DNA of 64,000 nt from Saccharopolyspora thermophila (GTDB taxonomy: Bacteria > Actinomycetota > Actinomycetes > Mycobacteriales > Pseudonocardiaceae). Made by a program: the position numbers and the translations under genes. The stretch is taken from NCBI RefSeq assembly GCF_014646075.1, contig NZ_BMMT01000004.1:1-64000 (forward strand). The letters are read 5' to 3'. The notes beneath the pieces were generated by a model. The model had not been told where the DNA came from and searched no databases. It saw nothing but the letters and a program-made list of their open reading frames with translations. Below, piece after piece: positions 57,183 through 61,962 of this stretch (positions are counted from its first letter, which is position 1; each line of letters starts with the position of its first letter).

Positions 57183-58451
57183 TCACAGGCCGAGGGCCTG
57201 GTTGACCGCCTCGGTGGTCGGCGCCACCGTGGCCTTCGGGCCGATCTGGTCCTCGACCGCGTCCAGGGTCTTCAGCCCGTCGCCGGTGATCAGCAGCACC
57301 GTCTCGGCGTCCGGGTCGATCTTGCCGGTCTCGATGAGCTTCTTCGCGGTCGCCACGGTGACACCACCGGCGGTCTCGGCGAAGATGCCCTCGGTACGCG
57401 CCAGCAGCCGGATGCCCTCGCGGATCTCGTCATCGCTGACGTCCTCGATGGCGCCACCGGTCTTGCGGACGATGTCCAGCACGTACGGGCCGTCAGCGGG
57501 CGCGCCGATCGCCAGCGACCGGGCGATGGTGTCCGGCCGCACCGGCTGGACCACGTCGTGGCCGTTCTTGTACGCGGTGGACACCGGGGCGCAGCCGGAT
57601 GCCTGGGCGCCGAAGATCCGCACCGGGCTCGGCTCCACCAGACCAACCTGGCCGAGTTCGTTGAAGCCCTTGTACACCTTGGTGAGTTGCGAACCGGAGG
57701 CGATCGGCACCACGATCTGCTCGGGGATGCGCCAGCCGAGCTGCTCGGCGACCTCGAAGGCCAGGGTCTTGGAGCCCTCCGAGTAGTAGGGGCGCACGTT
57801 GACGTTGACGAACGCCCAGTCCTCGTGCTCCGCGGCCAGCTCGGTGGCCAGGCGGTTCACGTCGTCATAGTTGCCGTCCACGGCCAGCAGCGAGCCGTCG
57901 TAGACCGCGCTCATCAGGATCTTGGCCCGCTCCAGTGTCTTCGGCACCAGCACCACCGAGTCCCACCCGGCGCGGGCCGCGGCCGCGGCGACCGCGTTGG
58001 CCAGGTTGCCGGTCGACGGGCACGCCAGCACCTTGAAGCCGAACTCGCGGGCGGCGGCCAGCGCCACCGCGACAACACGGTCCTTGAAGGAGTGGGTGGG
58101 GTTGCCGGTGTCGTCCTTGATCCAGATCCGCTTCACGCCCAGCGCCTTGGCGAGCTTGTCGGCCCGGATCAGGCGGGTACAGCCCGGCTCGGTGTTGGGG
58201 TGCTCCTCGACGTTGGACGGGACCGGCAGGAGCTGCTTGTAGCGCCAGATCGACCGTGGGCCGGACTCGATGTCCTCACGGCGGATCCGGCCGAACTCGT
58301 AGGCCACTTCCAGCGGCGAGAAGTCCTCGAGCGAGACGAATTCAGGAGCCAGCGGCTGGCGGTGCCCCTCTTCCTTGGACACCAGTTCGACGGCGTTACC
58401 GAGATCGAGCGCCTTGTTCGCGCCGGCGCGGACATGGGCAGCTGCAGTCAT
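57183..58451 (-). CDS. thrC: Threonine synthase
   Basis: A 422-residue PLP enzyme that makes threonine from O-phosphohomoserine. The PLP lysine is in GNPTHSFKDRV, the phosphate-binding loop reads CPSTGNLANAVAA, and the VPIASGSQLTKVYKGF and TAGGVTVATAKKL segments are conserved. The start ATG is preceded by GGAGAGG, which follows the riboswitch directly. It stands alone on the minus strand between comEC and holA; in M. tuberculosis thrC is at a different locus (thrA-thrC-thrB). The SAM riboswitch upstream suggests coupling of threonine to methionine/SAM status. Confidence 0.95.
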   Translation of the reverse strand: MTAAAHVRAGANKALDLGNAVELVSKEEGHRQPLAPEFVSLEDFSPLEVAYEFGRIRREDIESGPRSIWRYKQLLPVPSNVEEHPNTEPGCTRLIRADKLAKALGVKRIWIKDDTGNPTHSFKDRVVAVALAAAREFGFKVLACPSTGNLANAVAAAAARAGWDSVVLVPKTLERAKILMSAVYDGSLLAVDGNYDDVNRLATELAAEHEDWAFVNVNVRPYYSEGSKTLAFEVAEQLGWRIPEQIVVPIASGSQLTKVYKGFNELGQVGLVEPSPVRIFGAQASGCAPVSTAYKNGHDVVQPVRPDTIARSLAIGAPADGPYVLDIVRKTGGAIEDVSDDEIREGIRLLARTEGIFAETAGGVTVATAKKLIETGKIDPDAETVLLITGDGLKTLDAVEDQIGPKATVAPTTEAVNQALGL

Positions 58452-58462
58452 CGCGAGGTCCT

Positions 58463-58598
58463 CTCCTCATCTGTCCCGCGGACGGGTCGGAATTGGCACC
58501 GCTTTCGCCGGTGACCTCGCGCGGTGAGAACACGATTCGCCGGCGAACGGTTGCCGGGGCTTCATCGGGCCGGTCCCTCTGCCCCTCTGGATGAGCTA
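58463..58598 (-). promoter_or_regulatory. SAM riboswitch (SAM-I/SAM-IV clan) upstream of thrC
   Basis: Read on the minus strand, P1 pairs CTCATC (58595-58590) with GATGAG (58471-58466). The conserved core GATGAAGCCCCGGCAACC is at 58566-58549 and GGTGCCAATTCCGACCCG at 58500-58483. P2 uses GGGGC/GCCCC, P3 pairs ACCG-TTCGCC with GGCGAA-AG-CGGT, and P4 is a CCCG/CGGG hairpin. These match the S-box consensus closely. The 3' strand of P1 runs into the thrC ribosome-binding site (GGAGAGG, 58466-58460), so ligand binding could block translation. It is 11 bp from the start codon. Confidence 0.85.
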
Positions 58599-59995: not shown

Positions 59996-60289
59996 TGTCG
60001 CGCCTCTTCCTCGTCGGTCGATGGGGTCGTGCCGCGCTTTCGTCGGCCCTGCCTGGGGCAGGTCTTCCTCCACTGCGGAATGCCGCACGGCACGGTCGTC
60101 CATGCTAACAGCGGCCAGCTTCGCGAACGCCAGGCGGCCCACCCAGCCAAAACCAGCCACAACAGCAAACCCGAAACCTTACCCTCAGGTAACCTCCCCG
60201 TTTGCCTGAATCTGGGTGCTCTTTCCCCCGGGAGACGGAAGGTCGCCGTGAGGGTGCAGGTATGCGGCGTGCCCGGTTAGCATGACTCG
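59996..60289. other. Divergent intergenic region between rpsT and riboswitch
   Basis: Nearly 300 bp that must contain the promoters of rpsT (minus) and the EamA operon (plus). No gene is seen. A palindromic-like TTACCCTCAGGTAA at about 60179-60192 is the only dyad noticed. A TTAGCAT near 60277 may be part of the EamA promoter. Confidence 0.4.
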
Positions 60290-60434
60290 CGGTTGTGCCT
60301 AGGGTTCCGCTCACGCCCTGCTTCGCCGTAGGCATCCCACAACCAGGGGCGTGGAGGGCTGGTCCGAGCGGCACCGGCGGTCGCGGTCGGAGCGCGGCCG
60401 CACATCTGACGGGACAAAAGCCTGGAGGAGCCCG
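60290..60434 (+). promoter_or_regulatory. Guanidine-I (ykkC-type) riboswitch upstream of EamA transporter
   Basis: Three conserved blocks of the ykkC/guanidine-I RNA are present in order: CTAGGGTTCCGC at 60299-60310, CTGGTCCGAGCGG at 60359-60371 and ACGGGACAAAAGCCTGG at 60409-60425. P1 closes with GTGCC (60295-60299) and GGCAC (60370-60374). An inner stem pairs CACGCCCTG (60312-60320) with CAGGGGCGTG (60344-60353). The ACAAAAGCC element favours guanidine over the related ppGpp and PRPP classes. A 20-bp palindrome at 60438-60457 just after it could be the expression platform before the ribosome-binding site GGAGAGGG. Confidence 0.85.
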
Positions 60435-60470
60435 CGCTGCCGCGCGCCCGCGCGGCACGGAGAGGGTTCC

Positions 60471-61334
60471 ATGGGTCTGGCCGCCGTCCTGCTCGTCGTC
60501 GCCGCCGCGTTCGCGCACGCGGGCTGGAACTTCTTCGCCAAGCGCGCCGGTTCGGCCGGAGCGGGTTTCGTGTGGTTGACCGCCACCTGGTCGGCGGTGC
60601 TCTACCTGCCGGCCATGCTGGGTGCTCTGCTGTGGTCGGGCGTGCCACCGTGGGAGGACTGGCTGTTCGGGGTGCTGGTCAGCGCGGTGCTGCACCTCGG
60701 GTACTTCCTGCTGCTCCAACGCGGGTACGCGGTCGGTGACATGTCGGTGGTGTACCCGCTGGCCCGGGGCACCGGGCCGATGCTGGCGATGCTGGTCGCG
60801 ATCGCGGTGCTGGGCGAACGCCCAGGCTGGCTCGGGGTGCTCGGCGGACTGCTGGTGGTCGTCGGCGTGTTCGTGATCGGCCTGTCCGGCGGGGTGCCAA
60901 GGTCGGGCGCGAGCCTGGCCGGGGTGGGCTTCGGCCTGCTGACCGGCGCGCTGATCGCGCTTTACACGGTGTGGGACGCCCACGCGGTGACGGGGTTGGC
61001 CCTGTCGCCGCTGCTGTACGACTGGGCGAACAACCTCGCCCGCTCGGCCCTGCTCGCCCCGTACGCGGTGACCCGCCGCGAGCAGCTGACCGTGGCCTGG
61101 GCGGCGCACCGCCGCGAGATCCTGGTGGTGGCCCTGCTGTCCCCGCTGGCCTACATCCTGGTCCTGTCCGCGATGCAGCTCGCCCCGGTGAGCCTGGTGG
61201 CCCCGGCCCGCGAACTCAGCATCGTCCTGGCGGGCCTGCTGGCCTGGCGGGTCCTGGGCGAGCCACAACCGGGCCGCCGCATGGCGGGAGCGGTGGTGGT
61301 CCTCGCCGGAGTGGTCCTCCTCGGCATAGCCTGA
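60471..61334 (+). CDS. EamA/DMT-superfamily transporter under a guanidine-type riboswitch
   Basis: A 287-residue drug/metabolite transporter with about ten helices in two EamA repeats. The first covers about residues 3-130 (AHAGWNFFAKRAG, VVYPLARGTGPMLAMLVAIAVLGERPG) and the second about 140-287 (ALIALYTVWDAHAV, LVAPARELSIVLAGLLAWRVLGE). EamA proteins usually export amino acids, metabolites or drugs. The riboswitch suggests a role in guanidine or guanidinyl-compound export, as for the small Gdx (SMR) proteins usually found under this RNA. That link is inferred. The ribosome-binding site GGAGAGGG is 4 bases before the ATG. Confidence 0.88.
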   Translation: MGLAAVLLVVAAAFAHAGWNFFAKRAGSAGAGFVWLTATWSAVLYLPAMLGALLWSGVPPWEDWLFGVLVSAVLHLGYFLLLQRGYAVGDMSVVYPLARGTGPMLAMLVAIAVLGERPGWLGVLGGLLVVVGVFVIGLSGGVPRSGASLAGVGFGLLTGALIALYTVWDAHAVTGLALSPLLYDWANNLARSALLAPYAVTRREQLTVAWAAHRREILVVALLSPLAYILVLSAMQLAPVSLVAPARELSIVLAGLLAWRVLGEPQPGRRMAGAVVVLAGVVLLGIA

Positions 61335-61401
61335 CCAGCGATCCGGGTGACCCCAAACCGGGCTTTCGGGGTGGACGGTTCGCGCGATCATGGGAGTTGC
61401 G

Positions 61402-61570
61402 ATGACTGACCGGAACGGTCCGGACTTCTCCAGGATGACCGATGCCGAACTCGCAGACTGGCAGTACGAGCACCGGGACGAGCTTGATGCGAAAGAGCGG
61501 GGACTGCGAACCGGTCGAAGTCGACGTCGCACCGGCCTTCGAGGTGACGGGGTTGGGTGGGGGCGGGTAG
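61402..61570 (+). pseudogene. Frameshifted small gene (degenerate short protein)
   Basis: From ATG 61402 (with GGGAG upstream) the frame gives MTDRNGPDFSRMTDAELADW then QYEHRDELDAKER. A +1 shift near the CGGGG run at 61498-61502 then opens GDCEPVEVDVAPAFEVTG and a TAG at 61568-61570. Both halves read as natural protein, with the acidic Val-rich second half in only one frame. The original gene would be about 56 residues or a truncated N-terminus of a longer family. A sequencing error or programmed frameshift is also possible. Confidence 0.5.
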
Positions 61571-61581
61571 AAACGCTGGGC

Positions 61582-61962
61582 ATGGAGGTGCTGAACAGCC
61601 GCCTGATCGTTCGGCCCCGGGATCGGCAGCGGTCGCTGCGGTTCTACCGGGACGTGCTCGGTTTGGCGATCGCGCGGGAGTTCCCCGGGGGCACGGTGTT
61701 CTTCCTCGGACAGGGGTTCCTGGAGCTGTCCGGGCAGGGCGGGCCGGGCCCCAGCCCCGACCAGGTGCTCTGGTTGCAGGTCCGCGACCTGGCCGCCGAG
61801 TTCGACCGGCTCCGCGCCGCCGGCGTGACCGTGCTGGCCGAACCCGCCCGGCAGCCGTGGGGGCTGGACGAGGGCTGGATCACCGACCCGGACGGCATGC
61901 GCATCGTGCTCGTCGAGGTGCCCGCCGAGCATCCGATGCGCGCCGATCTCCGCAAGCTGTGA
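61582..61962 (+). CDS. VOC (glyoxalase/bleomycin-resistance fold) family protein
   Basis: A 126-residue VOC protein. The signature RSLRFYRDVLGLAIAREFPGGTVFFLG is followed by VLWLQVRDLAAEFDRLRAAGV and the end WITDPDGMRIVLVEVPAEHP. One betaalphabeta-beta-beta-beta repeat pair is complete, so it probably acts as a dimer with a metal site. No substrate is evident. I chose the start at ATG 61582; the frame is open upstream, where the small frameshifted gene lies. Confidence 0.85.
   Translation: MEVLNSRLIVRPRDRQRSLRFYRDVLGLAIAREFPGGTVFFLGQGFLELSGQGGPGPSPDQVLWLQVRDLAAEFDRLRAAGVTVLAEPARQPWGLDEGWITDPDGMRIVLVEVPAEHPMRADLRKL

Follow-up and report, generated by a model that had tools for sequence, protein, structure and literature searches.

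What does the RNA leader of an EamA-family transporter gene in Saccharopolyspora thermophila sense, and how would it act on that gene? We addressed this question in a window of 64,000 nucleotides, the whole stretch of DNA analysed here (contig NZ_BMMT01000004.1, positions 1 to 64,000 of the forward strand). A sequence-only reading had taken the leader for a guanidine-I riboswitch, proposed that the transporter might be a guanidine exporter, and named a variant ykkC subclass with another ligand as its alternative. From the comparisons below, we consider it very probable that the leader belongs to subtype 2d of the variant ykkC riboswitches, not to guanidine-I, and would act as an ON switch for EamA translation.

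Class of the leader RNA

A cmscan search of 411 nt matched positions 60288-60429 (+ strand) to the Rfam Guanidine-I model, RF00442, at 41.2 bits (E = 3.7e-6). This was the only ykkC-type Rfam match for the leader and, at E ≤ 0.001, the sole RF00442 match in the 5.36-Mb genome (E = 1.2e-5). The expectation that a ykkC covariance model would recognise the leader was thus borne out as to the match and failed as to the gathering score, which is 63 bits; because of this shortfall, a default Rfam run misses the leader. The three ykkC blocks described earlier are present, with CTAGGGTTCCGC at 60299-60310, CTGGTCCGAGCGG at 60359-60371 and ACGGGACAAAAGCCTGG at 60409-60425. The features of the aptamer, all on the + strand, are as follows.

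60288 to 60429 (+): ykkC-type aptamer, subtype 2d-like; RF00442 41.2 bits; R1 model 127.5 bits, a score that is not independent, as the R1 training set includes the window's own sequence
60295 to 60299 (+): 5' strand of P1, pairing with 60370-60374; paired in 43 of 43 rows, with two of five pairs changing on both sides
60310 to 60356 (+): enlarged P1b arm holding ACAACCAGG (60339-60347), from the alignment
60368 to 60369 (+): pocket G45-C46, where guanidine-I has G45-A46; numbering by alignment, positions as in the accessible text of PMC6031431
60370 to 60374 (+): 3' strand of P1, from the alignment pairing count
60377 to 60401 (+): P2 hairpin, 60377-60385 with 60393-60401; both-side changes at 9 of 9 pairs, 83.6% of cells paired
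60405 to 60409 (+): 5' half of the altered core, comprising P3 extension strand UCU (60405-60407) and G72 A73, from the alignment
60411 to 60423 (+): P3 hairpin, 60411-60413 with 60421-60423, loop ACAAAAG
60425 to 60429 (+): 3' half of the altered core, comprising G89 A90 and P3 extension strand GGA (60427-60429), which pairs with 60405-60407

RNAs of the window kind share P1, P1a, P2, P3 and most conserved letters with guanidine-I and differ from it in the pocket. By alignment, position 46 of the window RNA (60369) is C rather than the A of guanidine-I, and such a pyrimidine on a ykkC scaffold is the mark of ykkC subtype 2, which comprises the non-guanidine variants. Among the surveyed loci, canonical guanidine-I RNAs read CCGAGAG, ACGG and CCCGGGAG, whereas those of the window kind read CCGAGCG, CUGA and CCUGGAGG; the latter also have a P3 extension, often a longer P1b arm, and other downstream genes.

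One script found both blocks in 68 loci, of which 45 have C46 (42 distinct places, as three Saccharopolyspora places were fetched twice), 22 have A or G46 and one was unscorable. The downstream gene is EamA or TauE in 45 of these 45 C46 loci and in 0 of the 22 A/G46 loci; the RNA search supplied 33 of the 45 and the EamA search the other 12, which are for that reason not independent. The script missed some RNAs, including four loci of the window kind (L043, L066, L084 and L098) and 11 further C46 RNAs that have a third core and precede guaA. Because of these 11, it is the core, not C46 alone, that tracks EamA/TauE. Furthermore, in four genomes (G109, G126, G142 and G158) a window-kind RNA coexists with a canonical guanidine-I RNA that lies elsewhere, before non-EamA genes, an arrangement compatible with two distinct signals. 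Across 53 RNAs of two alignments (A1 and A2), part of them found through EamA, the following gene is EamA in 50 and TauE in 3; Pfam confirmed TauE for L066 and L105, and for L085 the evidence is a tblastn match at 27%.

ykkC subtype 2d is described as an orphan riboswitch candidate that controls EamA/phn_DUF6 and TauE genes (accessible text of PMC7266159 and PMC5912903). The 2018 paper places it closest to guanidine-I (PMC5912903, in the part available), the 2020 review counts it as the one ykkC class still orphan (PMC7266159, likewise), and a 2022 paper, in its accessible text, considers it likely that one more variant class with an unknown ligand exists (PMC9788692). The window kind resembles 2d in its ykkC scaffold, its altered pocket closest to guanidine-I, and its position before EamA (phn_DUF6) or TauE/SafE transporters. 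The best NCBIfam model of the window's EamA protein is TIGR03340 (phn_DUF6), at 115.2 bits and under its cut-off of 288. Going by the published descriptions, in the parts of them available, we found no difference that excludes 2d; the P3 extension, masking helix and phnE neighbourhood described below come from this analysis and are absent from the accessible 2d descriptions in PMC7266159 and PMC5912903.

We conclude that the window leader is probably an orphan subtype 2d RNA and not a guanidine sensor, on the basis of gene association, marker position and nearness to guanidine-I, with 2d matched by its published description rather than its consensus. The alternative offered by the sequence-only reading is thereby supported, and the class was already published. 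The link to EamA was likewise on record, since 2d had been described as controlling EamA/phn_DUF6 and TauE genes. The window RNA is a new member of an already known orphan class, to which we add a structure, a model of the switch and a family of candidate ligands that can be tested. A literature search that left out preprints and most subscription papers returned, by title or abstract start, no paper on the 2d ligand.

Two other assignments were rejected because neither the pocket letters nor the genes agree with them. The leading claim of the earlier reading, a true guanidine-I riboswitch of drifted sequence with EamA as guanidine exporter, could draw on RF00442 being the only ykkC-type Rfam match and on phn_DUF6 proteins and guanidine transporters belonging to one superfamily (PMC5912903, accessible text), but the score below the gathering value, C46, the change of three of the four ACGG letters, the lack of EamA/TauE after A/G46 RNAs and the presence of both classes within four genomes make it highly improbable. 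We give equally little credence to a PRPP, ppGpp or nucleoside-diphosphate aptamer: C46 beside G45 is a likeness to the PRPP and ppGpp aptamers (ykkC 2b and 2a), to which this pyrimidine is common (PMC6031431, in the part available), but the rest of the pocket and the genes differ, with a purine, amino-acid or Nudix/HAD gene following 0 of the 53 RNAs, a core (UCUGAC...UGGAGGA) unlike the ACACCG... core found before glutamate-synthase-like genes (genes assigned by eye), and no P0 helix that recurred consistently when the alignments were inspected by eye.

Aptamer structure and a putative translational switch

Structure was counted on 43 aligned RNAs (A1) and was drawn by hand and from the alignment fold. 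GAGCG was the row filter for A1, and C46 is therefore present in this alignment by selection. Paired cells made up 93.9% of this alignment, against at most 49.0% with one side slid, and the outer G-U pair of the P3 hairpin was nonstandard in 3 of 43 rows. The P3 stem carries an extension of three extra pairs that is unpaired in none of the 43 rows: 60405-60429 (UA in 33, GC in 6, CG in 3, AU in 1), 60406-60428 (CG in 38, AU in 5) and 60407-60427 (UG throughout). Between the extension and P3 lie G72/A73 and G89/A90, whose letters hold in 42 and 43 of the 43 rows, respectively, and which could form two G-A pairs, a geometry suggested by the letters. A wider alignment of 40 RNAs, which takes in members of other families and phyla, retains the extension; each of the three pairs is unpaired in one row.

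Many family members carry a conserved ACAAYCAGG-like stretch within the enlarged P1b arm (window 60339-60347). A ACAACCAGG-type stretch is absent from members with a short P1b, such as L055 and L063-L065, and some members, but not all, show complementarity of the 5' flank to P1b (GGTTGTG/CACAACC).

The 3' strand of the P3 extension has a second potential partner at the ribosome-binding site. The elements involved, and the genes that follow them, are listed here.

60427 to 60433 (+): GGAGCCC, strand of the putative alternative (OFF) helix, pairing with 60464-60470 and overlapping the P3 extension strand
60438 to 60457 (+): GC hairpin within the putative OFF helix, 60438-60445 with 60450-60457, from sequence and fold
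60459 to 60465 (+): Shine-Dalgarno-like GGAGAGG, from sequence
60464 to 60470 (+): GGGTTCC, partner of 60427-60433, directly 5' of the start codon and over the Shine-Dalgarno
60471 to 61334 (+): EamA/DMT-family transporter of 287 aa, phn_DUF6-like (PF00892 73.4 bits; TIGR03340 115.2 bits)
61582 to 61962 (+): gene of the VOC/glyoxalase family that may be the second in the unit, likely start 61582 (the longer frame, 61390-61962, matches PF00903 at 61.7 bits)

The GC palindrome noted earlier ahead of the ribosome-binding site is thus present as the hairpin of this list. In a 40-row test with start codons picked by the analyst and relatedness uncorrected, the masking helix of native partners scored a mean of 5.8 versus 3.8 for swapped partners, and 0 of 10,000 permutations did as well. 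The helix also appears in unconstrained minimum-free-energy folds of the window's leader. It is weak in the alphaproteobacterial rows (L126, 2.5; L139, 3.3) and in some actinobacterial rows (L081, 3; L029 and L079, 4). The stability of the leader as a whole is no better than that of shuffles (z = -0.21, with 85 of 200 shuffles folding as well), and the + strand between 60100 and 61600 contains no T-tract terminator.

That the same bases covary with two partners is the pattern expected of mutually exclusive helices, and the ability of the P3-extension strand to mask the ribosome-binding site leads to a translational ON-switch model. Without ligand, 60427-60433 would pair with 60464-60470 around the GC hairpin and hide the Shine-Dalgarno and start codon. 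Ligand binding would hold the P3 extension together and free the ribosome-binding site, so that EamA translation would be turned on. We regard translational ON control by ligand as the simplest model, one whose direction we infer from the arrangement of the two helices.

Downstream genes and distribution

The EamA gene lies directly downstream of the leader, as had been stated. The protein had been called a full-length ten-helix EamA; its EamA identity stands, and as to the helix count a crude hydropathy scan gave nine segments, with ten plausible. The description of EamA as the sole downstream gene does not hold, since the VOC/glyoxalase-family gene comes next. Judged by eye from the N-terminus, a VOC-like gene lies directly 3' of EamA in 8 of 20 contexts of relatives (L222, L223, L224, L228, L230, L232, L233 and L234). 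The window's VOC copy has weak NCBIfam matches, far under cut-off, to fosfomycin-type VOC enzymes.

The window's EamA protein has 15 relatives at 73-86% identity, all in Saccharopolyspora. Ten of 19 contexts from the window's family are at the lepA locus, and nine of these ten are also beside rpsT, as in the window. Six Saccharopolyspora loci (L036, L037, L040, L042, L044 and L045) yielded no leader motif and have a TauE-like gene directly before EamA, in what seems to be the equivalent position next to rpsT; L224 and L229 have a TauE homologue separating rpsT from the 2d-EamA gene. A gene for an MSMEG_1061-type PPOX flavoprotein adjoins 2d-EamA in G1291 (L238:9945-10553; 246 bits, cut-off 170) and, by eye, is found by 2d-EamA in G892 as well (L190:6046-6654).

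A search of the window's family (200 genomes) gave RF00442 matches at E ≤ 0.01 in 66 genomes, and matches exceeding the gathering score in 21. Scanning with the R1 model gave a match of any kind in 18 of 396 genomes of the window's phylum; six were read as 2d, including the window's own genome, three were another EamA-associated variant, and the remainder were guanidine-I-like or spurious. The same model matched 23 of 398 genomes in the phylum of the Acuticoccus locus, where L139 was the sole 2d-like RNA among the loci read, and 58 of 150 genomes in the class to which the Negativicutes locus belongs; the loci readable there were of other ykkC types. A scan of the class of G892 matched 19 of 289 genomes, with two 2d-like RNAs (L139 and L209).

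Other RNAs were met alongside. The third ykkC-type RNA has C46, the core CUCCGGGAGAGAAACCCAGGGAGGGACCGGUCGG and a likely P0 helix (GACCG/CGGUC), and precedes guaA at 11 loci of the window's family (L073, L083, L090, L091, L092, L094, L095, L099, L100, L101 and L102; genes assigned by eye). The ORF that follows it in L100 is a GMP synthase (764 bits vs 400), and a literature search for ykkC with guaA gave two matches, unrelated-looking. At L110, L112 and L114, another ykkC variant with the core CACCUCAU/CAGGGACA.AAGCCUCGAG stands before a different EamA-like protein (by eye). The window also holds a SAM riboswitch at 58464-58597 on the - strand (77.2 bits), upstream of ORF 57183-58451, which is threonine synthase-like by eye.

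Phosphonate neighbourhoods and the candidate ligand

A clue to the ligand came from the neighbourhoods of 27 window-kind loci, 19 of them from the window's family. In family f9, Agromyces-like judging by similarity, the RNA occurs in 8 of 110 genomes (7 genera), and PhnE was found at E ≤ 1e-20 in 32 of the 110, 25 of them above the model cut-off. All eight RNA genomes have PhnE versus 24 of the 102 others (Fisher p = 2.6e-5, relatedness uncorrected). The nearest PhnE match lies 2.0 to 6.2 kb from the RNA in seven of the eight, with all the nearby matches just under the model cut-off in three of these seven; in G1458 the two are on different contigs.

At L235 of this family, EamA adjoins genes for a PhnD-type binding protein, PhnC, PhnE, HpnW, a PhnX-like hydrolase and HpnZ; these six phosphonate models are all above their NCBIfam cut-offs, and a GntR gene is under its PhnF cut-off. 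Two Agromyces mediolanus loci (L055 and L056) have GntR and PhnD genes beside EamA, and the A. soli locus (L057) has no GntR/PhnD match beside EamA. In G892, 2d-EamA is convergent with phnHIJ (PhnH, PhnI and PhnJ), and phnE and phnF lie further along. In G010, a 2d-TauE gene is near genes for phosphonopyruvate decarboxylase (Ppd; 371 bits, cut-off 312.5) and PEP mutase (PF13714 above cut-off; TIGR02320 291.7 bits, under 319.55).

Nearer to the window, phosphonate genes were found in 1 of 19 window-family contexts (L189), and none was found in four 2d contexts outside this family (L188, L191, L192 and L238). The window's genome has neither PhnE nor PEP mutase at E ≤ 1e-20. In the window's family, PEP mutase was present in 6 of 35 RNA genomes versus 12 of 165 others (p = 0.096, not significant), counted at an analyst's threshold of 199 bits (the curated cut-off leaves only 7 of 200 genomes) and with G001 and G045, which are among the 66 RNA-positive genomes, unread and entered as lacking a window-kind RNA. 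For PhnE the family counts were 6 of 24 versus 28 of 106 (p = 1.0), taking the 130 genomes to be G000-G129. A direct contrast gave phosphonate genes in 5 of 27 2d contexts and 0 of 20 guanidine-I contexts, leaving out generic ABC-ATPase cross-matches at 30-36% identity; its query proteins were taken from 2d loci, which biases it, and we relied on the curated-model search instead.

Structural precedent comes from the PRPP aptamer, where G48 and C49, the equivalents of G45 and C46, hold phosphate, the former directly and the latter via a metal (PMC6031431, accessible text), making a PO3-bearing ligand structurally sensible. We tentatively propose, at somewhat less than even confidence, that 2d senses a phosphonate or phosphonate-derived metabolite, with G45-C46 and a metal holding its PO3 group, and switches on EamA/TauE exporters of phosphonate- or sulfonate-type anions. 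EamA would then export the sensed anionic phosphonate or phosphonate-derived metabolite; we are less sure of this ligand reading than of the switch model. We know of no earlier riboswitch for C-P chemistry, and a literature search found none by title.

The strongest competing view of the ligand follows the authors who defined 2d, who guessed at a small, charged, toxic, guanidine-like compound (PMC5912903, in the part available). The RNA would on that account sense a toxic nitrogen compound akin to guanidine, and its phosphonate neighbours would be incidental or due to some further role that the transporter has. That neither the window's genome nor its family shows a significant link to phosphonate genes is consistent with this, as are the lepA contexts (10 of 19, nine also by rpsT), which are without phosphonate genes. 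The proximity of phnE at seven of eight loci in one family, the phosphonate genes in two other lineages, and the second target, TauE, a family named for sulfite export, argue against it, and on balance we consider a nitrogen compound rather unlikely, though a serious competitor.

If the ligand is a phosphonate, its source in Saccharopolyspora must be external or unrecognised, and members beside phosphonate operons, including those of Agromyces mediolanus, are better test RNAs than the window's own. For such work, the comparison supplies a testable structure, a proposed switch mechanism in which the bases are named, and one particular chemical family to try. Were the phosphonate reading true, 2d would be the first C-P riboswitch class known to us. 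Binding of a phosphonate would identify the ligand class, give phn_DUF6 transporters a function, and show one RNA fold moving from a cation to several phosphate-like anions.
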